A stretch of DNA of 38,746 nt, from the NCBI GenBank assembly GCA_029009515.1, contig JAQXJZ010000095.1, positions 1-38,746 of the forward strand, written 5' to 3'. The stretch comes from a bacterium (GTDB lineage Bacteria; Bacillota; Clostridia; Christensenellales; Aristaeellaceae). A model generated the notes under the pieces. That model saw only the letters and a program-made list of their open reading frames with translations, had not been told where the DNA came from and did no database searches. The position numbers were made by a program, and so were the translations under genes. Below are positions 2,752-25,422 of the stretch, piece after piece (positions within the stretch are counted from its first letter, which is position 1; each line of letters opens with the position of its first letter).

Positions 2752-4134
2752 ATGTTCACAAAAGCTCATGCCTGGCTGGAGGATGCTTTCACCTCTCGGC
2801 AGTTTACCTATAAGCAGCTGCGCAGCATGTTTTTTACCCTGGTGCTGGATGCTTTCTTCATCATGTTCATCAACATGCTGTCGGTGTCCATGGTCTCCTC
2901 TACAGGCGAGGCAGCCATGGCGGCGGTCAACATGGTGGGTTCCGTCAACTCGCTGGTGTCGCTCATTTTCTCGGCGCTGGCCACGGGCGGTTCCATTGTG
3001 ATCGCGCGCGCCAAGGGACGCGGCGATGAAGGCGGTATCCGCACCGTCATTGGCGAGACCATCTGCCTGTGCGGTGCGGTAGCCATCGTGTTTGGCGGCA
3101 TGCTGTTTGCGCTGAGCGAAGTGCTCATCGGCGTATTGTATCCGCGTGCGGAGCCGCTGCTGGTGGACTACTCCATCCGCTACATGCGCCTGGTGTGCAT
3201 CTCCTTCATTCCCTTCTCGGTGTTCAACGTTATCTTCTTCGCCTTCCGCAGCACCGGCGATACGCGCTCCAGCCTTTTCCTGACCATCTTCATCAACACG
3301 CTGCACCTGCTTTGCAGCTTCCTCTTCATCAACGGCATGCATCTGGGCGTGACCGGTGCAGGCATGAGCTACATCGTGGCGCGCACCGCCGGCATGATCG
3401 TGGCGCTGGTATGGCTTTTGAAGGTGCACAACGAATACCACATTCACCTGCGCAACCTGTTCCATTTCTCCAAAGACATCACGGCGCAGATTGTGCAGCT
3501 GGGCGTACCCATCGCGTGGGAATCCGCGCTGTTCCAGGGCGGCATGCTGCTGGTGCAGATCTATTTGGCCTACCTCACCACCACCGATCTGGCGGCGCAC
3601 GGCGTGGCCAACTCGGTGTTCGGATTGTTCCTGTCCACCGGCAACGCCATGACCTCCTTTGCCACCACGGTGTGCGGCCAGTGCTACGGCGCCGGGCTGT
3701 ATGAGCTCACCCGCCGCTACTGCCGCAAGATTGTTGCCGCAGGCCGCGTGGTGCTTCTGGTGGTGACGGTGGTGTTCCTTGCGGCCACGCCGCTCCTGCT
3801 CAAGCTGTACAGCCCGTCCGAAACGGCGCTGCCCATCATCTGGACTTGCCTCGCCATCGGCTGCATCGGCCTGCCCATCATCTGGTGCGATGGCTACATC
3901 ACGCCCATGGCGCTGCGCACGGCGGGCGACGCCACGTTCTCCTCGGTGGTGTCCGTGGTGGCGCTGGCCATCGGCCGCATCATCATCGGCTACGTCCTGA
4001 CCATCGTCCTCGGCCTTGGCGTGCCGGGCGTGTGGATTGGCATGATGTGCGAATGGCTCATCCGCGCCGTGCTGATGCGCATCCGCCTGCGCGGCGACAA
4101 GTGGCTGCATATTCAAGAAGTCAAAGCTGCTTAA
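2752..4134 (+). CDS. MATE family multidrug/metabolite exporter
   Basis: A 460-residue polytopic protein with about twelve hydrophobic segments in two halves, typical for the multidrug and toxic compound extrusion family, which swaps Na+ or H+ for organic cations or other metabolites. Characteristic stretches are AAMAAVNMVGSVNSLVSLIF in the first half and AAHGVANSVFGLFLSTGNAM in the second. The length is normal for the family. The ribosome site is modest (AGAAGG, nine bases before ATG). It heads a three-gene operon with a PIG-L type deacetylase (34 bases downstream) and a serine hydrolase, so export of a compound modified by those two enzymes, or resistance to one, is possible but unproven. 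A second unrelated MATE gene lies at 35.3-36.6 kb. Confidence 0.9.
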   Translation: MFTKAHAWLEDAFTSRQFTYKQLRSMFFTLVLDAFFIMFINMLSVSMVSSTGEAAMAAVNMVGSVNSLVSLIFSALATGGSIVIARAKGRGDEGGIRTVIGETICLCGAVAIVFGGMLFALSEVLIGVLYPRAEPLLVDYSIRYMRLVCISFIPFSVFNVIFFAFRSTGDTRSSLFLTIFINTLHLLCSFLFINGMHLGVTGAGMSYIVARTAGMIVALVWLLKVHNEYHIHLRNLFHFSKDITAQIVQLGVPIAWESALFQGGMLLVQIYLAYLTTTDLAAHGVANSVFGLFLSTGNAMTSFATTVCGQCYGAGLYELTRRYCRKIVAAGRVVLLVVTVVFLAATPLLLKLYSPSETALPIIWTCLAIGCIGLPIIWCDGYITPMALRTAGDATFSSVVSVVALAIGRIIIGYVLTIVLGLGVPGVWIGMMCEWLIRAVLMRIRLRGDKWLHIQEVKAA

Positions 4135-5989: not shown

Positions 5990-7621
5990 TCAGGGACGGA
6001 TGAGAATTTTGTGGTGGAAGGCGGTGTAGTCGGTCATGTAGACGGTGGCACAGCCGGCGGTCTTGGCTTCGCTGTCCTCCTTGCCTTCGGTGAAATGGTG
6101 CGTGCCGAAGGCCGGGCCGATGGTCATGACGGAGGCGGGATTGGACACTTCAAAGAAGGAATCGCGCAGCACCAGCACTTCGTCGCCGTGCACGGGCATG
6201 GTCATGTGATCGTTGGAGATGCGGTCGATGCCGCCAAAGGCCAGCTCCACGCGCCACGGCGCGCCTTCCACGCCGCTGGTGCGCACATCCAGTTCAAGGC
6301 CGTCATCGGTTTCGCGGATCGTCACGTCGATGTCCATGTCCGGCCCCAGCTTCTTGTCGCGGCTGGTGTTGTCCATCTGCCACCAGTCGCTGGTGGCGGG
6401 TTTCTCCTTGAAGGGCAGGTAGTACCAGCCGCGCATGGTCTGGTGCAGATGGAACGCGCCGGTTTCATCCTGCGTCATGGTTTCGGCCTTGAAGGCGCGG
6501 TGTTCGCAGAAGCTGCCGCCAATCTTCACCGCCAGCTTGATGGAGCCGTTGTGTACGTACAGGAAGTTGGATTTGCCGCGCATGACGGTGTAGGTGTAGT
6601 GACCGCGGCGCACGCGCGCGATGCCGGAATCCTGATAGAATGCGCTGTAGCGCTCCGGCGTACCGCTCGCTTCGCACTCACAGACGATGAGCTCGGGGCG
6701 GTTCATCAGGTCGATGAGCACATCAGGGGCAAGGATCTGCTTTTCACGCACGACCTGCATGATGTGGTTGGCCATGGCGAGGAATTCCGGAATCTGCCTG
6801 GTTGTGCCCAGATAGAGATACTCCAGATAGTAGCCGTCCGCATAGACGAGGCGGTCCTTGTCAAAACGGGTGGAATTGGCGGTGAACACGCTGTCGTCCG
6901 GCTCCCAGTAGGTGAGCATCATGCGCAGGTTGCAGATGACGTGCTCCTCAAACGAGGGATCATCCAGCCCGTCGGCCAGCAGCAGCATGGCGTCGTTGTT
7001 GACGGCATTGTAGTTGCCGGCGGATTTTTCCGCGTACTCGCCGTCGGCATTGCAGTCGATGCCCTCATTGAGGTACTGCGCAGCAGCGGCGGTGAGATCT
7101 TCTTCCTGAAAGAGCTTGCCGCAGATGGACAGCACCGAGGCAATGGCCCAGCGGTGGTTGGGCGTGTGGAAGCCGCCCTCCAGCAGACCGCGCGCGCCCT
7201 GGTGGATGATGCGCTCCAGCCGCTGCAGGATGCCGCTTTCCTCCTGCGTGCGCTCAATGCCGCGCAGATAGCGCAGATGCGGGATGATCTTGACGATGCA
7301 GAAGGCCGTGTCCGGCGCAGAGAAGAAATTGCAGGTGACGTAATCGAACAGGCCGTTTTCGTGCTGCACGCGCTGCACGTAGTCAAGACCCAGATGGATG
7401 CGCGCAAGAATGTTTTCGTCGTGATAATACCGGCTGTCCGGGCAGCAGTACACGGCGATCATGGAGGCGGTCTGGTAGATGGCAAACTTTGCCTGATACA
7501 CGCCGTCCGGCTGGCTGAACGCACCGCAGTACGGGCTGTGGACGTTCTGGTTCTGCGTGCGCAGCGATCGCTCCACGCGCACCTCGGTATCGTGCAGGAT
7601 GGTCTGATAATGGGCTTGCAT
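5990..7621 (-). CDS. putative (alpha/alpha) toroid polysaccharide lyase-like protein
   Basis: A 543-residue protein without a signal peptide. I do not recognise an exact family. The first about 330 residues are helical with repeated aromatic and charged helices and conserved-looking patches (NHRWAIASVL around His156, and GNYNAVNND around 202-210); the last about 200 residues are beta-rich. This two-part build, toroid then beta-sandwich, is that of heparinase II/III-like and alginate-lyase-like enzymes, which cleave uronic-acid polymers by beta-elimination. His156, Asn203 and Tyr204 are candidate catalytic residues by position only. It is the last gene of the glycan operon, 18 bases after the GH38 stop, with AAGGAG before the ATG. 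Co-occurrence with a GH105 unsaturated-uronyl hydrolase supports a lyase role acting on imported oligosaccharides. A glycosidase is the alternative. Confidence 0.6.
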   Translation of the reverse strand: MQAHYQTILHDTEVRVERSLRTQNQNVHSPYCGAFSQPDGVYQAKFAIYQTASMIAVYCCPDSRYYHDENILARIHLGLDYVQRVQHENGLFDYVTCNFFSAPDTAFCIVKIIPHLRYLRGIERTQEESGILQRLERIIHQGARGLLEGGFHTPNHRWAIASVLSICGKLFQEEDLTAAAAQYLNEGIDCNADGEYAEKSAGNYNAVNNDAMLLLADGLDDPSFEEHVICNLRMMLTYWEPDDSVFTANSTRFDKDRLVYADGYYLEYLYLGTTRQIPEFLAMANHIMQVVREKQILAPDVLIDLMNRPELIVCECEASGTPERYSAFYQDSGIARVRRGHYTYTVMRGKSNFLYVHNGSIKLAVKIGGSFCEHRAFKAETMTQDETGAFHLHQTMRGWYYLPFKEKPATSDWWQMDNTSRDKKLGPDMDIDVTIRETDDGLELDVRTSGVEGAPWRVELAFGGIDRISNDHMTMPVHGDEVLVLRDSFFEVSNPASVMTIGPAFGTHHFTEGKEDSEAKTAGCATVYMTDYTAFHHKILIRP

Positions 7622-7639
7622 ACGGTTCTCCTTCCCCTG

Positions 7640-10576
7640 TCACAGGCGCAGCAGGAATGTTTTGATTTCAAAGGCGTGGAAGCTCACGCAGCGCGGATCA
7701 ACCGGCTGCGGATTTTCTTCCAGCATATCAGTTTCCGTCGCCGACTGCACAGCCGGATGCACGGTGAATGCCGCCTTGGTCTGGATGCCCATACTCTCAT
7801 AGGCGCGCACCAGCAAGGCGCTCCCGTCCGTGTCGGCTGGCTTGATGGTTTCCACAATGATGTTGGGCTGATCGGGCAGGAAAACCGGGCCGATCTCATC
7901 CAAAGGCCCGTACACAGGCGGCTCGTTGAGCTGTGCGGCTTCGTGCAGCGCATCCACCAGCGTGCCTTCCACCGGACAGAACGCGTACGTAAAGCGCTGC
8001 ACGCCCTGATCTGCCGTCATGTCCGGCATAAGCGGAGACTTGAGCAGCGTAAGGCGGATGTCGTTCTCCTTCACGTTCACGCCGTACTTGCCGTTGTTGA
8101 GCACCGCTGCGCCATGTGCGCCGTCGAAGAGCGCGGTGTAACGGTGATTGCACACCTCGTACTGGTCGCGGTCGTGCTGGCGCGAGCGGTGCACCGGACG
8201 CTTCACATGGCCGAACTGGATCTCGTGCACGGCTTCGTTGGTGTAGGTATTTACCGGGAAGGACGCCTTGAGCAGCTTGTGGCGCTCCCGCCAGTCGATC
8301 TCGGTGACGAAATCCAGCCGTCTGCCGTCGTTTGCAAGCCGGATGCGCTGCGTCATGGGCGAATGATGGAGCGTGCGCGTAATCACGATAGCTGCACCGC
8401 GTTCGTCCTCGCACGTTTCCGCATGAACGTCGCCTGAGAGCTCCACCGGCAGATTTTCATACATGCTGCCCAGTTCCCACGCATCGTAGCAGGTGTTCAC
8501 GTCCTTGAACATCATCAGGCGGTTGCCGGGCGCAGCAAGATATTCGCGGCCGCTGTGCTGCACGCTGATCACTTCGCCCTGATGGCTGATCACGCAGCGC
8601 AGAAAAGCATTTTCCAGCATCCACCCTTCGTCGCATGCTGTAACGGAGGCTTTCTTTTCATTTTGCGCTGCGGCAATGGCGCAGCCCTGCGCCGGGATGG
8701 TCTGGCCGTTCACGGTGACGGGCCAGCTCAGCGGGTTGTGAAGCGCGGTTTGCGCGCCGTCATGCATGGCGCAAATCAGGCTTTCGCAGCTTTCCCGCAC
8801 ATCCGCCAGCTCGCGCTCCGCACGCTCATGCACCCTTGCAATGGACGTGCCGGGCGCGATATCGTGAAACTGGTTGAACAGCAGCAGCTTCCAGCAGCGT
8901 TCCAGCTCGTCCTGCCACTCCGGCAGGATGGGCTTGCCGGCCAGCATGCGCCGCGCCATGTGGTATTCCACCTGTTTGAGCGCGATTTCCGCCTTGCGGA
9001 TGCCGCGCTTGGTTCTGGCCTGCGTGGTGAGCGTGCCGCGGTGCCAGGCCAGATACAATTCGCCGCGATACACGTTATCCACGCCATTTTGCTGTGCGCG
9101 TTCAAAATAGCGCACGGGGCTTTCCATGCGGCAGCGCGGCGCGCCTTCGAGGTCGCGGCAGCGGCTGGCCAGCTCGATCATCTCGCGCGTGGGGCCGCCT
9201 CCGCCATCGCCGAAGCCAAAGGGATACATCATGCCGTCGATGTTCTCCTGCTGGATGCGGTCGTCCTCCCAGCGGGTGAGGAGATCGCCGGAGTCAAAAT
9301 TGGCGTTGTTCTTTTTGAACAAATGGCTCAGCACGCGCGTGCCGTCCATGCCCTCCCACCAGAACAGGTTGTACGGGAAGGGATCGGCCTCCGGGTCCTG
9401 ACGCACCAGCTTCTGCGTGGCAAAGTATGCCACGCCGCACTTGCGCATGATCTGCGGCAGCGCAGCGGAAAAGCCGAAGGTGTCCGGCATCCACGCCATG
9501 CGGCTTTCGGTGTGCACATGCTCGCGGAACCAACGTTTTCCGCGCACGAACTGTCGGATGAGGCTTTCGCCGGACGGGATGTTGGTGTCCGATTCAATCC
9601 ACAGCGCGCCTTCGGGGATGAACGCGCCGTCCTCCGTTTTGCGCTGCACGCGCTCATACACGTTCGGGTAATGCCGGCGCAGATATTCCAGAATAGGCGG
9701 CTCGCACAGGAGGAAGGCATACTCCGGGTATTCCTCCATCAGCGCAAGCTGGTTGGAATAGGTGCGCGCGCATTTGCGCACGGTCTCCTCCACCGGCCAC
9801 AGCCACGCCATGTCCAGATGCGACTGGCCGAACACCGTGTATTCAGGCGCGGTAGAGCCATTGCGGCAGGCAAGCAGAGGCTTGAGCACCCTGGCAGCCT
9901 CTGCCACGCTTGCCGTCATTTCCTCCACAGGCAGTTCAAAATCTGCGATACAGGTGAATTTCTTGAGCCCTTCCACGATCTTCATCGTGCGCAGGCTCTT
10001 TTCCGGCAGTTTCTTCACAAGGCTGTACAGCGCGCGGTAATCCATCGCGGCCTGAAACACCGTTTCATTCCACACGCCCACAAAGGACGGCTGCACCTTC
10101 TGCTGATGCTTCGGCGGCTCGGGCACGGGTTCTTCATCCGGGCCAACAGGGCCCGCGCCCTCGTTGCGCACGCCATGTCCGGCGTAGCATTCGGCCAGAA
10201 TCTCGTAGCGTTCTCCAGCCCGTGCGCAGCGTGTGAGGGTGATGTACCCATGCTTTTGATCGATGGCTCCGGACTCCTGTCCGTTCACCCACACCAGCAT
10301 TTCCTCGCCCACGCGCAGGCACAGCACCAGGCGCTGTCCATCCAACCTTTCAGGCACGGTAAACTGTGTGCGGAACCAGCCGTACTGCCACTTTTCACCC
10401 CATGTCATGCCAGCGGGCGCAGGCTGAAAAGACCCCTGCGCCGCCTGGGCAAAGGTCAGGTGATCCATCGTGGTGAAATACTCCGTCTCCAGCGCAAACC
10501 TCGCTGCGATGAAGTGCTTTTCAAACTGTTCCGCCCAGATCCTCAGGCGGTCCTCCCATTGTCTGCCGATGTTCAT
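7640..10576 (-). CDS. GH38 alpha-mannosidase
   Basis: A 978-residue cytoplasmic glycoside hydrolase of family 38, a zinc-dependent retaining alpha-mannosidase. Visible catalytic features are His253 and Asp255 in SHLDMAWLWP (zinc ligands), Asp365 in WMPDTFG (nucleophile) and His571 in QFHDIAPG (zinc ligand). An N-terminal about 220-residue beta domain precedes the catalytic barrel, and a large beta-sandwich follows to the C-terminus, as in bacterial members. The reading frame is open further upstream (to 10882), but that part overlaps the GH105 gene. The ATG at 10576 with GCGAGG upstream and the start of family-like sequence fix the beginning. It would release alpha-linked mannose from imported glycans after the GH105 step. 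It shares architecture with the second GH38 at 25.5-28.6 kb. Confidence 0.95.
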   Translation of the reverse strand: MNIGRQWEDRLRIWAEQFEKHFIAARFALETEYFTTMDHLTFAQAAQGSFQPAPAGMTWGEKWQYGWFRTQFTVPERLDGQRLVLCLRVGEEMLVWVNGQESGAIDQKHGYITLTRCARAGERYEILAECYAGHGVRNEGAGPVGPDEEPVPEPPKHQQKVQPSFVGVWNETVFQAAMDYRALYSLVKKLPEKSLRTMKIVEGLKKFTCIADFELPVEEMTASVAEAARVLKPLLACRNGSTAPEYTVFGQSHLDMAWLWPVEETVRKCARTYSNQLALMEEYPEYAFLLCEPPILEYLRRHYPNVYERVQRKTEDGAFIPEGALWIESDTNIPSGESLIRQFVRGKRWFREHVHTESRMAWMPDTFGFSAALPQIMRKCGVAYFATQKLVRQDPEADPFPYNLFWWEGMDGTRVLSHLFKKNNANFDSGDLLTRWEDDRIQQENIDGMMYPFGFGDGGGGPTREMIELASRCRDLEGAPRCRMESPVRYFERAQQNGVDNVYRGELYLAWHRGTLTTQARTKRGIRKAEIALKQVEYHMARRMLAGKPILPEWQDELERCWKLLLFNQFHDIAPGTSIARVHERAERELADVRESCESLICAMHDGAQTALHNPLSWPVTVNGQTIPAQGCAIAAAQNEKKASVTACDEGWMLENAFLRCVISHQGEVISVQHSGREYLAAPGNRLMMFKDVNTCYDAWELGSMYENLPVELSGDVHAETCEDERGAAIVITRTLHHSPMTQRIRLANDGRRLDFVTEIDWRERHKLLKASFPVNTYTNEAVHEIQFGHVKRPVHRSRQHDRDQYEVCNHRYTALFDGAHGAAVLNNGKYGVNVKENDIRLTLLKSPLMPDMTADQGVQRFTYAFCPVEGTLVDALHEAAQLNEPPVYGPLDEIGPVFLPDQPNIIVETIKPADTDGSALLVRAYESMGIQTKAAFTVHPAVQSATETDMLEENPQPVDPRCVSFHAFEIKTFLLRL

Positions 10577-21121: not shown

Positions 21122-21185
21122 TATTTTGCCATCCTTGCGCAGCGAAAAAAAAAGCCTCCTTGCCGAAAAAAACAGATCCGCATTC

Positions 21186-21215
21186 TTTACAATCCGCCGC
21201 TTCGCATGGTATAGT
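21186..21215 (+). promoter_or_regulatory. promoter of the hydrogenase maturation operon
   Basis: TTTACA (21186-21191) and TATAGT (21210-21215), each five of six matches, are separated by 18 bases. Transcription would start near 21222, leaving a leader of about 154 bases before the first start codon. Confidence 0.65.
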
Positions 21216-21221
21216 AAAAAA

Positions 21222-21375
21222 CGGTCCTGACATTAAGCTTTTGGCTGCGTGGAAGGATGCGAACAACCACACATTCTGCGAAGGCGCGCATCTCTTTTTT
21301 GCACGCGCTTCGATGTTGTGCCGCATCCTTTTGTACAGGATGCGGCACATTTGTTTTGACAAGGAGGATGCGCAC
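21222..21375 (+). promoter_or_regulatory. candidate cis-regulatory leader RNA (terminator/antiterminator switch)
   Basis: The octamer AGGATGCG occurs three times in this leader: 21254-21261, 21337-21344 (3' arm of the terminator) and 21365-21372 (overlapping the ribosome site). Its complement CGCATCCT occurs once, at 21322-21329. Pairing of 21253-21261 with 21322-21330 (nine pairs), continued by 21263-21267 with 21315-21319 (five pairs), encloses a hairpin at 21279-21288/21304-21312 and would destroy the terminator's 5' arm. Pairing with the third copy would hide the ribosome site. This is the layout of a riboswitch or protein-controlled attenuator. I recognise no known riboswitch class in the possible sensing part. 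The pairings are seen directly; the regulatory role is inferred. Confidence 0.6.
21317..21357 (+). terminator. leader terminator upstream of the hyd operon
   Basis: A perfect 13-base stem (21317-21329 with 21337-21349) around a seven-base loop, followed by TTTGTTTT. It lies downstream of the operon's promoter and 18 bases before the first gene's start codon, so it should cut most transcripts short unless an alternative fold forms. Confidence 0.82.
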
Positions 21376-21633
21376 ATGGAAACGCGGATTGCAGTTATGA
21401 GCATCATTGTGGAAAACAGAGACTCCGTGCAGATGACCAACGCGCTTTTGCACGAATACGGCGAGTACATCATCGGCCGCATGGGCATTCCTTACCGCAA
21501 GCGCGGCATCAGCATCATCAGCATTGCGCTGGATGCGCCGCAGGATACCATCTCCACCCTGTCCGGCAAAATCGGCAATTTGCCCGACGTGAGCGTGAAA
21601 ACCGCTTACTCCAGCGTCAAATCGCATGAATAA
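21376..21633 (+). CDS. TM1266-type putative hydrogenase-system regulator
   Basis: An 85-residue protein with the pattern METRIAVMSIIVENRDSV then a GRMGIPYRKRGISIISI core, typical of the TM1266 family. These are small ferredoxin-like (ACT/NikR-C-like) proteins habitually encoded next to HydE, HydF and HydG and named iron-only hydrogenase system regulator, though their biochemical action is not established. AAGGAGG at 21361-21367 precedes the ATG. The 3' end overlaps the HydE start by eight bases, so translation is coupled. As first gene after the leader switch it could take part in feedback on that RNA, which is a guess. Confidence 0.85.
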   Translation: METRIAVMSIIVENRDSVQMTNALLHEYGEYIIGRMGIPYRKRGISIISIALDAPQDTISTLSGKIGNLPDVSVKTAYSSVKSHE

Positions 21634-22687
21634 AGAAAAAGAGCTGTTCGCCCTTATTGACCAGCTGGCTTCGCAGCATCATCTTTCGCAGGATGAATAC
21701 CGGTTTCTCATCGATCACCGCACGCCGGAAGCGGCCGAGAAGCTGGCGCAGCACGCCGTGCAGGCGCGCAAAGCCGTTTACGGAAACAAGGTGTTCATCC
21801 GCGGGCTGATTGAAGTGAGCAACATCTGCAAAAACGACTGCCTGTACTGCGGCATCCGGCGCAGCAACACCCAGTGCCAGCGCTACCGTCTCACCGCGCG
21901 GGACATTCTGGACTGCTGCCGCGAAGGGTATGGTCTGGGCTTTCGCACCTTTGTGCTGCAGGGCGGCGAGGATGCGTTCTTCACGGATGATTTCCTGTGC
22001 GGCCTGCTTGAAGAAATCAAGCGCGCTCACCCGGACTGCGCCGTCACCCTGTCCCTGGGCGAGCGCAGCCGCGAAAGCTACGCGCGCCTGAAGCAAGCCG
22101 GTGCAGACCGCTATCTGCTAAGGCACGAAACGGCGGATCAGATCCACTACGAAAAGCTGCATCCCTCCGCCATGCGCTTTGACAACCGCATGCGCTGCCT
22201 TCAGGATCTGAAGGAGCTGGGCTATCAGGTGGGCTGCGGCTTCATGGTGGGATCGCCCTTCCAGACCTCACGCGAGCTGGCCAGCGATCTGGCCTTCATC
22301 GAGCGCTTCCAGCCCTCCATGTGCGGCATTGGCCCCTTCATCCCCCAGTCCGCAACGCCTTTCAGGAATGAGGCGGCAGGCACGCTGGAATTGACCTGCT
22401 ACCTGCTTTCCATCATCCGGCTCATCCAGCCAAACCTGCTTCTGCCCTCCACCACCGCGCTGGGCACCATCCACCCCAGCGGGCGCGAAATGGGCATTCT
22501 GGCTGGCGCAAACGTGGTGATGCCCAATCTCTCCCCGCCTTCCGTGCGCAAGAAGTACGCCCTGTATGACAACAAGGCCACCGACGGCGCCGAAGCCGCC
22601 CAGTGCAGAGATGCGCTGGCACAGCGCATGGCCGCCATCGGCTACGAGGTGGTCACCGCGCGCGGCGATATCATCCCCATTCCCTGA
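21626..22687 (+). CDS. hydE: HydE, radical SAM [FeFe]-hydrogenase maturase
   Basis: A 353-residue radical S-adenosylmethionine enzyme. Cys68, Cys72 and Cys75 (CKNDCLYC) bind the catalytic [4Fe-4S] cluster, and VLQGGED at about 112-118 is the GGE-type SAM contact. The rest follows the BATS-containing HydE layout: GCGFMVGSPFQT, GIGPFIPQSATPF and LGTIHPSGREMGILAGANVV. The second C-terminal cluster motif seen in some HydE proteins is absent, which is common. HydE works after HydG on the cysteine-bearing iron-carbonyl-cyanide intermediate to build the H-cluster two-iron unit. The start lies within the preceding gene with no clear ribosome site of its own. Confidence 0.95.
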   Translation: MNKEKELFALIDQLASQHHLSQDEYRFLIDHRTPEAAEKLAQHAVQARKAVYGNKVFIRGLIEVSNICKNDCLYCGIRRSNTQCQRYRLTARDILDCCREGYGLGFRTFVLQGGEDAFFTDDFLCGLLEEIKRAHPDCAVTLSLGERSRESYARLKQAGADRYLLRHETADQIHYEKLHPSAMRFDNRMRCLQDLKELGYQVGCGFMVGSPFQTSRELASDLAFIERFQPSMCGIGPFIPQSATPFRNEAAGTLELTCYLLSIIRLIQPNLLLPSTTALGTIHPSGREMGILAGANVVMPNLSPPSVRKKYALYDNKATDGAEAAQCRDALAQRMAAIGYEVVTARGDIIPIP

Positions 22688-22746: not shown

Positions 22747-24201
22747 ATGACCTACAATCCCAAATCCCTCAAAGCGGAAGAGTTTATCTCTGACGCCGAG
22801 ATCCTGGACACCCTTGCCTACGCGGAAGCCAACAAAAACAACCTGCCCCTCATCGAAAGCATTCTGGAAAAAGCCAAGCCCCAAAAAACCGAAACCGGCT
22901 ATACCTGCGCCGGTCTCACCCACCGCGAGGCGTCCGTGCTGCTGGCATGTGAACTGCCCGAGGTGACGCAGAAGATTTACCAGATTGCCGAAGAAATCAA
23001 GCTGGCCTTCTACGGCAATCGCATCGTCATCTTTGCGCCGCTGTACCTGTCCAACTACTGCGTCAACGGCTGCGTCTACTGCCCCTATCACCTCAAAAAC
23101 AAGCACATTGCCCGCAAGAAGCTCACGCAGGAGGAAGTGCGCGCGGAGGTCATCGCTCTGCAGGATATGGGCCACAAGCGCCTGGCCATCGAAGCGGGCG
23201 AAGACCCGGTCAACAACCCGATTGAATACATTCTGGAGTGCATCAAAACCATCTACAGCGTTCACCACAAGAATGGCGATATCCGCCGCGTGAACGTAAA
23301 CATTGCCGCCACCACCGTGGAAAACTACCGCAAGCTCAAGGACGCCGGCATCGGCACCTACATCCTGTTCCAGGAAACCTACCACAAGGAGAGCTACGAG
23401 GCGCTCCACCCCACCGGCCCCAAGCACAACTACGCCTACCACACCGAGGCCATGGACCGCGCCATGGAGGGCGGCATTGACGACGTGGGTCTGGGCGTGC
23501 TGTTTGGCCTGGAACTGTACAAGTACGAGTTTGCCGGTCTTTTGATGCACGCGGAGCACCTGGAAGCGGTGCACGGCGTGGGCCCGCACACCATCAGCGT
23601 GCCGCGTCTCAAGCGCGCCGACGACATCGATCCCGATCAGTTCGACAACGGCATCGATGACGAAACCTTTGCCAAAATCACCGCCTGCATCCGTCTGGCG
23701 GTTCCCTATACGGGCATCATCATCTCCACCCGTGAAAACGAGAAGGTGCGCACCAGGCTGCTTCGTCTGGGCGTATCGCAGGTTTCGGGCGGTTCCCGCA
23801 CCTCCGTTGGCGGATACGCTGGCTACAGCGCCGAGGAGCGCCCGCACGACACTGAGCAGTTCGACGTGTCCGATCAGCGATCGCTGGACGAAGTGGTGTG
23901 CTGGCTGATGGAGAATGGTCACATTCCGTCCTTCTGCACCGCCTGCTACCGCGAAGGCCGCACCGGCGACCGCTTCATGAGCCTGTGCAAATCCGGCCAG
24001 ATTCTCAACTGCTGCCACCCCAATGCGCTGATGACGCTGAGCGAATATCTGGAGGATTACGCTTCCGACAGGACGAAGGAAGTGGGCTACCAGATGGTGG
24101 AGGACGAGCTCAAGCGCATCCCCAAGGACAAGGTGCGCGCCATCGCCCAGCAAAATATTGAAGACATCAAGAACTCCAACCGCAGGGATTTCCGATTCTG
24201 A
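22747..24201 (+). CDS. hydG: HydG, tyrosine lyase of [FeFe]-hydrogenase maturation
   Basis: A 484-residue radical SAM tyrosine lyase that makes the CO and CN ligands of the H-cluster from tyrosine. The N-terminal cluster motif is Cys105-x3-Cys109-x2-Cys112 (CVNGCVYC). The C-terminal auxiliary cluster motif CX2CX22C is intact: Cys397, Cys400 and Cys423. Both are needed for Fe-CO-CN synthon formation, so the enzyme should be active. The start is ATG 22747, preceded by AAAGGAAG; the frame is open upstream only into the end of hydE. There is a 59-base gap after hydE with no terminator. Confidence 0.96.
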   Translation: MTYNPKSLKAEEFISDAEILDTLAYAEANKNNLPLIESILEKAKPQKTETGYTCAGLTHREASVLLACELPEVTQKIYQIAEEIKLAFYGNRIVIFAPLYLSNYCVNGCVYCPYHLKNKHIARKKLTQEEVRAEVIALQDMGHKRLAIEAGEDPVNNPIEYILECIKTIYSVHHKNGDIRRVNVNIAATTVENYRKLKDAGIGTYILFQETYHKESYEALHPTGPKHNYAYHTEAMDRAMEGGIDDVGLGVLFGLELYKYEFAGLLMHAEHLEAVHGVGPHTISVPRLKRADDIDPDQFDNGIDDETFAKITACIRLAVPYTGIIISTRENEKVRTRLLRLGVSQVSGGSRTSVGGYAGYSAEERPHDTEQFDVSDQRSLDEVVCWLMENGHIPSFCTACYREGRTGDRFMSLCKSGQILNCCHPNALMTLSEYLEDYASDRTKEVGYQMVEDELKRIPKDKVRAIAQQNIEDIKNSNRRDFRF

Positions 24202-24219: not shown

Positions 24220-25422
24220 ATGAGCCTTAACAACGTTCCGTCTGCGGAGCGCATCCACATCGGTTTTTTCGGCATGTGCAACGCCGGCAAATCAAGCCTC
24301 GTCAACGCCGTGACCGGGCAAAGCCTGTCGGTGGTGTCTGATGTAAAGGGCACCACCACCGATCCCGTGAAAAAAGCCATGGAACTTTTGCCCCTTGGCC
24401 CGGTGGTGATTCTGGACACGCCCGGCCTGGACGACGAGGGCGAGCTGGGCAGGCTGCGCGTGGACAAGGCGCGGCAGATGCTTGCCCAGACCAACATCGC
24501 TGTGCTGGTGGCGGACGCCCAAAGCGGCCTTGGCGACATGGACCGCTGGCTTTTGCAGGAGCTGAAGGAGCGCAAAATCCCCTTCCTCATCGCCTTCACC
24601 AAGGCCGATCTTGCGGCGGATCATCCCGCATCCGGCGAAAGCGTCATCTACGTCAGCGCCGTTACCGGCGAAGGCGTGAACGAGCTGAAGGAAAAGCTGG
24701 GCCAGTTTGCCAAACAGCTGGAAAACCCCAGGGTGCTCGTGCGCGATCTGCTCTCCCCCGGCGATCTGGTGGTGCTGGTAACGCCCATTGACGAAGCTGC
24801 GCCCAAGGGCCGCCTGATTCTGCCCCAGCAGATGGTGCTGCGCGATATTCTGGATGCGCACGCCATGGCGGTGGCATGTCAGGACACGGAATTGAAGGAC
24901 ACGCTCAGCGCGCTTGGCCGCAAGCCGCGCATGGTCATCACCGATTCGCAGGCCTTCGCCGCGGTTGCCAAAGACACGCCTGCGGATATTCCACTCACCT
25001 CCTTCTCCATCCTCATGGCGCGCTACAAGGGTGAACTGGCCTCGCTGGTGCGCGGCTTTTCAGCGCTGAGCCGCCTGCAGGACGGCGACCGCGTGCTGAT
25101 CTCCGAAGGCTGCACACATCACCGCCAGTGCAAGGACATCGGCACCGTGAAAATGCCGGGATGGATCGGCCAGTTCTCCAAAGCCAAGCCGGAGTATCAC
25201 TTCACCTCCGGCGGCGAATTTCCGCAGGATCTGAGCCCCTACCGCGTGGTGGTGCACTGCGGCGCGTGCATGCTCAACGAGGCGGAAATGAAGCACCGCG
25301 TGAGCCTTGCTGCGCAGGCCAATGTGCCGATGGTGAACTACGGCATCGCCATTGCAGGCATGCACGGCATTCTCAAGCGCAGTCTGGAGCTTTTCCCGGA
25401 TCTGCTGGCGTTGCTGGCATAA
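24220..25422 (+). CDS. hydF: HydF, GTPase scaffold of [FeFe]-hydrogenase maturation
   Basis: A 400-residue protein that receives the H-cluster precursor and passes the two-iron unit to the hydrogenase. The N-terminal GTPase domain has G1 GMCNAGKSS (18-26), G3 DTPG (66-69) and G4 TKAD (127-130). A dimerisation domain follows, then the iron-sulfur domain with Cys298-x-His300 and His346-Cys347-x2-Cys350, the family's CxHx45HCxxC pattern. AGGAGG precedes the ATG, 18 bases after hydG. It is the last gene of the operon, closed by a strong terminator. No hydrogenase structural gene lies in the window. Confidence 0.95.
   Translation: MSLNNVPSAERIHIGFFGMCNAGKSSLVNAVTGQSLSVVSDVKGTTTDPVKKAMELLPLGPVVILDTPGLDDEGELGRLRVDKARQMLAQTNIAVLVADAQSGLGDMDRWLLQELKERKIPFLIAFTKADLAADHPASGESVIYVSAVTGEGVNELKEKLGQFAKQLENPRVLVRDLLSPGDLVVLVTPIDEAAPKGRLILPQQMVLRDILDAHAMAVACQDTELKDTLSALGRKPRMVITDSQAFAAVAKDTPADIPLTSFSILMARYKGELASLVRGFSALSRLQDGDRVLISEGCTHHRQCKDIGTVKMPGWIGQFSKAKPEYHFTSGGEFPQDLSPYRVVVHCGACMLNEAEMKHRVSLAAQANVPMVNYGIAIAGMHGILKRSLELFPDLLALLA

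Follow-up and report, generated by a model that had tools for sequence, protein, structure and literature searches.

The window, by which we mean the whole analysed stretch of 38,746 nucleotides (contig JAQXJZ010000095.1 of assembly GCA_029009515.1, from a member of the Aristaeellaceae), contains a hydrogenase-maturation operon that starts with a gene of the TM1266 family and continues with hydE, hydG and hydF. Our subject is the leader of this operon. A short hairpin at its 5' end probably decides whether the maturation genes are on or off, most likely, to judge from sequence, by catching the TM1266 protein. An original prediction for this DNA had named the same operon with the TM1266-type gene in first place, and matches to TIGR03959, TIGR03956, TIGR03955 and TIGR03918 bear it out. 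The features are as follows.

21186-21215, + strand: promoter-like site of sigma-70 type, TTTACA-18-TATAGT (10 of 12 consensus matches)
21222-21261, + strand: conserved pseudo-symmetric hairpin, proposed anti-antiterminator and sensor (energy folds, covariance-model matches, covariation, consensus)
21222-21228 with 21254-21261, + strand: helix P1 of the hairpin, CGGUCCU with AGGAUGCG
21229-21230 with 21252-21253, + strand: internal loop next to P1, GA and GA
21231-21233 with 21249-21251, + strand: helix P2, CAU with GUG
21234-21235 with 21247-21248, + strand: internal loop next to P3, UA and GC
21236-21239 with 21243-21246, + strand: helix P3, AGCU with GGCU
21253-21261, + strand: AAGGATGCG, used either as the 3' strand of P1 in the hairpin or as the 5' strand of the antiterminator (exact match, fold, matched pairing across leaders)
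21279-21312, + strand: linker hairpin with a U-rich loop (energy fold; not conserved in relatives' leaders)
21317-21349, + strand: intrinsic terminator hairpin of 13 base pairs (bp), -23.5 kcal/mol, then a T-rich tract to about 21358
21322-21330, + strand: segment of the terminator 5' arm, alternative partner of 21253-21261 (exact complement, fold, cross-leader matching)
21365-21372, + strand: third copy of AGGATGCG, sharing bases with the ribosome-binding site (not conserved and probably there by coincidence)
21376-21633, + strand: TM1266-family protein of 85 amino acids, first gene of the operon, proposed RNA-binding partner (TIGR03959, PF21699)
21626-22687, + strand: hydE (TIGR03956)
22774-24201, + strand: hydG as translated, its real start slightly upstream (TIGR03955)
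24220-25422, + strand: hydF (TIGR03918)

The terminator lies where it had been placed, ahead of the first gene: its arms, 21317-21329 and 21337-21349, form 13 perfect pairs around a 7-nucleotide loop, and TTTGTTTTGA follows. The octamer AGGATGCG occurs, exactly as reported before, at 21254, 21337 and 21365, and its complement once, at 21322-21329. To this the minimum-energy fold adds a pairing absent from the original prediction, between the octamer at 21254 and the start of the transcript (CGGUCCU, 21222-21228). The leader folds at -58.7 kcal/mol against -44.9 +/- 3.6 in 200 dinucleotide shuffles (z = -3.9), better than all 200. The transcript would start at about 21221-21223, as placed from the promoter-like site; shuffles lead one to expect 0.6 such sites, and taken alone the site is weak.

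The 3' strand of the hairpin has a second possible partner. Positions 21253-21261 can make nine exact pairs with 21322-21330, and when the transcript is folded to 21336 an antiterminator of ten pairs, a small internal loop and five more pairs appears, which reproduces the nine pairs plus five that had been foreseen. At this length the antiterminator (-38.0 kcal/mol) has an advantage of about 4 kcal/mol over the hairpin (-33.9). With the whole terminator transcribed, the combination of hairpin and terminator (-53.7 kcal/mol) is better than the antiterminator (-45.2). From these two comparisons it follows that holding the hairpin closed should cause termination, and the direction of control would be that binding shuts the operon off.

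The same competition can be followed from leader to leader. The pairing of core and terminator was scanned in the first 43 of the 67 rows of A5 (E ≤ 0.03), 29 of A3 and three others, with several terminators cut imperfectly, and a terminator-like hairpin follows 72 of these 75 motif sites. In 71 distinct leaders the core RAAG and the nine bases after it pair with the terminator arm of their own leader at a mean of -11.20 kcal/mol. Permuted leaders give -8.55 +/- 0.29 kcal/mol, and none of 20,000 permutations is as good. What had been proposed was a three-way switch. The exclusive choice between terminator and antiterminator stands, since the pairing is matched leader by leader. The third state, in which the octamer at the ribosome site takes part, is rejected, because that octamer is not conserved: it is absent from the ribosome sites of the nearest relatives (L010, L118, L119).

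The original prediction had called for a covariance search of TM1266 and hydE leaders, and this yields a conserved and covarying 5' hairpin. By eye, relatives' TM1266 leaders have this hairpin and little else in common; the stretch that links core to terminator differs among them in both length and sequence. The U-rich linker hairpin, formerly taken for the sensing region, is rejected in that role for want of conservation in relatives' leaders; we place the sensor upstream at 21222-21261, because the conserved element lies there and the linker is variable.

Covariance models were built from 18 sequences (R1) and 29 sequences (R2); alignment A7 holds 72, L166 having been left out as a contig identical to L060 in length and leader. 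Six of the 72 were set aside as unparsed, and the other 66 give the consensus CUGA-(3-4 bp)-NAAG, stem P3, YUGM-(3-4 bp)-RAAG, whose two strands read nearly alike. Two similar internal loops, which may contain tandem sheared G-A pairs, flank the P2 helix of 3-4 bp with approximate two-fold symmetry. P2 is fully paired in 63 of the 66 parsed sequences, its variants including CAC:GUG, CAU:GUG, CGCC:GGCG, CAUC:GAUG, CAG:CUG, UAC:GUA, UGCG:CGCA and others. Covariation over the whole structure is 0.423 in the 72 sequences, against 0.226 when shuffled and at most 0.126 when slid (0.489, 0.278 and at most 0.177 in the first 29), in alignments whose fitting to the structure biases them in its favour. 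P2, however, adjoins nearly ungapped anchors. Read from the anchors only, 46 of 80 leaders are readable and 32 have P2 fully paired, against 22.0 in shuffles (maximum 31). A strict symmetric pattern is present in 38 of 80 leaders, where shuffled leaders give a mean of 0.57 (maximum 2), and in none of 78 downstream stretches or 80 reverse strands.

The element is also visible by eye in leaders L124, L144, L151, L165, L171 and L185, which enter no count. L185, from a Coriobacteriaceae metagenome-assembled genome, has P2 UCU:AGA and a matching terminator, and would extend the element to Coriobacteria. L005 and L007 seem to hold divergent versions of it.

One could suppose that the terminator is plain and constitutive and that the repeats arose by chance, the octamers following from its inverted repeat. 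Two of the three octamers are simply explained, as terminator arm and ribosome site. But the matching of core and terminator arm is leader-specific, the core is conserved with covariation across many genera, and the strict pattern stands in 38 of 80 leaders against 0.57 in shuffles; we consider this supposition very improbable. We are confident, rather, that the leader is a conserved hairpin joined to a switching architecture with mutually exclusive pairings.

What might hold the hairpin? The gene contexts give some indications. Most commonly the site stands before TM1266 with the hyd genes behind. In L061, L063-L068, L070-L072, L074, L076, L198 and L200 it lies in the gap between TM1266 and hydF, so that TM1266 is upstream of that site, and in L155 (6291-6335) and L145 (6286-6328) a second site marks the hydE-hydG boundary, where its output is perhaps different. 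Related sites thus precede hydF and hydG in addition to hydEGF and importer genes. The latter are of three kinds. Sites before TM1266 and an energy-coupling factor (ECF) S component are found in L120 (scanned), in L123, L127, L134, L139, L158 and L179 (aligned to L120) and in L081 (by eye); the S component has no relative by sequence in the PDB and hence gives no clue to a ligand. Sites before TM1266 and an NMT1-type ATP-binding cassette (ABC) importer occur in L166 (scanned, just above the cut-off) and L173 (by eye). FecCD-type ABC importers accompany site and TM1266 in L129 and L157 (scanned) and L088 (by eye), and in L103 the site lies, by eye, between TM1266 and a FecCD-like gene (fecC). 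In the window itself the hyd operon adjoins a divergent gene for a xanthine/uracil-type permease (PF00860, 19642-21183, - strand).

The L157 locus deserves separate mention. Here a FecE-type ABC ATPase (6265-7380) carries a fused TM1266 domain at its C-terminus, which suggests that TM1266 senses a transported ligand. The genes that follow (7367-10255) encode HydE, above the TIGR03956 cut-off, and then NifH-like and NifE/BchN-like proteins, after which the 10-kb locus ends; neither HydG nor HydF is matched separately within it. These genes possibly belong to another metal-cofactor pathway in which HydE takes part. L161-L163 resemble L157 in their TM1266 and HydE positions, and in L129 NifH- and NifE/BchN-like genes come after FecCD. 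An unrelated lysine riboswitch (RF00168) lies upstream in L157 on the opposite strand (3459-3634, - strand).

Throughout the contexts inspected TM1266 is the constant neighbour of the motif, and no other gene is. Among the named loci, which are the best 80 of 593 TM1266 matches, a site at E ≤ 0.03 is present in 41, in 40 cases 60-230 nucleotides before TM1266 and in one case 907. L167, from Sporobacter termitidis DSM 10068, is among those with a match (E 0.011). Searches of genomes at E ≤ 0.01, each of which counts the window, gave the following. Within the family 26 of 200 genomes have matches, 23 beside TM1266 and three not (L073, L078, L079). Within the order there are 15 of 396, ten beside TM1266 and five not (L079, L082, L083, L085, L086). 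Within the phylum 28 of 398 genomes match at 30 places, five of them beside TM1266 (the window, L088, L089, L101, L103) and 25 not. The window's own genome has one covariance-model site. Some matches away from TM1266 have good E-values (L090 3.6e-5, L091 4.1e-5, L092 2.6e-4, L093 3.9e-4, L094 8.3e-4, and L073 1.8e-5 with R2). A terminator follows 24 of 29 sites beside TM1266 and 2 of 32 sites away from it; this test used 29 of the 31 adjacent sites, L087 and L089 being left out as cut loci. An open frame of at least 100 codons surrounds 22 of the 29 and 28 of the 32, and does not discriminate. L102, away from TM1266, was scored with a terminator and without a long frame in the test; it reads as the end of a frame of 512 codons, and its core does not pair with its terminator. 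Its genome carries a TM1266 gene on another contig.

The TM1266 protein had been one of several guesses for a partner, and it is this constant adjacency that now makes it the best-supported one. The window's protein lies above the curated cut-offs (TIGR03959, 118.4 bits against 60.8; PF21699, 112.2 against 27). Its predicted fold is that of the C-terminal nickel-sensor (ACT-like) domain of NikR without the DNA-binding part, and it did not match a CAT-domain family. Annotation of the TM1266 family goes no further than a putative regulator of the iron-only hydrogenase system. A divergent TM1266 (about 29-37% identical) occurs without the RNA element in L012-L025; by eye, a gene for a transporter-like substrate-binding protein comes after it in L012.

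The following mechanism can be suggested. In the free hairpin the 3' strand, RAAG with the bases after it (here AAGGATGCG), would pair with the 5' arm of the terminator; the antiterminator would form and the operon would be transcribed. If the hairpin is held closed, it would act as an anti-antiterminator, the terminator would form and transcription would stop in the leader. The holder would be TM1266, the product of the first gene and a NikR-type sensor domain standing alone, sitting as a dimer on the nearly two-fold symmetric site when it carries a small ligand. This would be autogenous control of the PyrR type. That TM1266 binds the hairpin at all is, judged from what surrounds the motif, about an even bet; its dimeric state and its ligand we infer. 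To the full statement, a 5' hairpin attenuator held by a ligand-carrying TM1266 dimer under PyrR-type autogenous control, we give a probability of about 0.5.

Two other holders have to be considered. RNA binding by TM1266 is a proposal only, and another protein, or the conditions of transcription or translation, might act on the hairpin with TM1266 uninvolved. No gene but TM1266 is constant beside the motif, however, and we find this improbable.

The more serious suggestion is a new riboswitch class, in which a small molecule or metal ion stabilises the hairpin directly and so favours the terminator, TM1266 being just a gene of the regulon, e. g. a carrier or second sensor. A covarying, conserved, aptamer-like hairpin is joined to an expression platform, which is what a riboswitch looks like, and both the architecture and the covariation fit. 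The targets are three kinds of importer together with cofactor-maturation genes, a mix typical of metabolite or metal riboswitches. The predicted ligand-sensing fold of TM1266 and the fusion of such a domain to an ABC ATPase in L157 make a diffusible pathway ligand likely. Against this, the element is one short hairpin, and the near-repetition of bases between its two internal loops, with two-fold symmetry, suits a dimeric protein better than one ligand. Furthermore, a riboswitch would be expected to stand alone before some target genes, so it counts against it that 30 of the 32 matches away from TM1266 have no terminator and that L102 reads as the end of a coding frame. We regard a riboswitch as a distinct possibility, though somewhat doubtful.

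Several observations weigh against our preferred reading, the attenuator held by TM1266. The want of a terminator is the main ground on which matches away from TM1266 were judged to be chance. Because TM1266 was the query by which the named set was gathered, that set cannot reveal the motif without TM1266, and the adjacency of the two could reflect a shared pathway. Four of 40 window-type genomes have no match at E 0.05, and ten of the 36 with matches have none at E ≤ 0.001 beside TM1266 (G167 is scored here as a miss though its L043 matches R2; one of the 17 weaker places, E 0.0038-0.05, was inspected). The L203 match (3.1e-4) was assessed by eye only. The scan gave no terminator at the second sites L155:6291 and L145:6286, nor in L076. 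Within the hairpin, distinct P2 triplet combinations read from anchors only are fully paired in 6 of 17 cases against 3.4 expected, which is not significant (669 of 10,000). P1 is weakly supported, 308 of 20,000 permutations being equally good, and the two P1 pairs counted in the 72-sequence covariation have no two-sided change.

Whatever holds the hairpin, a short RNA element shared, to judge from contig titles, by many gut and rumen bacteria ahead of hydEGF is a handle on hydrogen production, and the transporter targets point to a nutrient or metal of the H-cluster pathway. To our knowledge no regulator has been described that acts through RNA on the supply of H-cluster maturation enzymes. 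For TM1266, a putative regulator lacking a DNA-binding part, the leader gives a concrete possible mode of action. If we extend the suggestion further, TM1266 may be an RNA-binding attenuation protein responsive to a ligand of H-cluster assembly; its dimer would clamp the hairpin and shut off the maturation genes along with those for importing that ligand, and the RNA would then found a new family of attenuators in Bacillota and perhaps Coriobacteria. We offer this tentatively, at slightly less than even chances.

How does the leader compare with known systems? Rfam 15 at curated scores has no match in the window, and a lax scan of 21150-21420 gave matches only far below those scores. The Rfam families matched in 18 relatives were two tRNAs and one lysine riboswitch, all elsewhere in the locus. 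A known Rfam class is rejected on these grounds, in agreement with the original prediction, which had recognised none. No report of the element was found in the open-access literature searched, and a search for hydrogenase in PMC6429828, PMC2864571 and PMC11109978 gave no occurrence.

The closest parallel is the pyr operon of Bacillus subtilis, where, according to PMC7430163, anti-antiterminator, antiterminator and terminator compete in attenuators, one ahead of pyrR and others ahead of pyrP and pyrB, and the anti-antiterminator hairpin is held by PyrR, a dimer carrying a small ligand. In the hyd leader there are likewise three competing hairpins, as judged by sequence and computed energies alone, and several sites in operons, one of them before the gene of the proposed regulator. 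PyrR is a uracil phosphoribosyltransferase with the site ARUCCAGAGAGGYU (PMC7430163). The hyd hairpin has two similar CUGA/RAAG loops instead of this site, and the candidate protein (PF21699) is predicted to have a NikR-sensor fold, not a phosphoribosyltransferase-type one. In the ribonucleic antiterminator of LicT, SacY and BglG the two internal loops of a hairpin are bound by the two subunits of a dimer and a terminator is controlled (PMC3369936). The hyd hairpin, too, has two internal loops and is tied to a terminator. The hairpin of LicT, SacY and BglG, however, is itself the antiterminator and its binding means on, whereas ours competes with a separate antiterminator through a shared 3' strand. 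Molybdenum and tungsten cofactor riboswitches are reported before some hydrogenase genes (PMC5651825, PMC9481103), and their family is in Rfam (PMC5651825). They resemble our case as RNA switches ahead of hydrogenase-related genes, but their Rfam family matches neither the window nor the 18 relatives scanned. Finally, unlike NikR, TM1266 with its 85 amino acids has no room for a DNA-binding part, and would act on RNA rather than DNA. What is new is the RNA element, found neither in Rfam 15 nor in print as searched, and its likely protein; the kind of mechanism is known.
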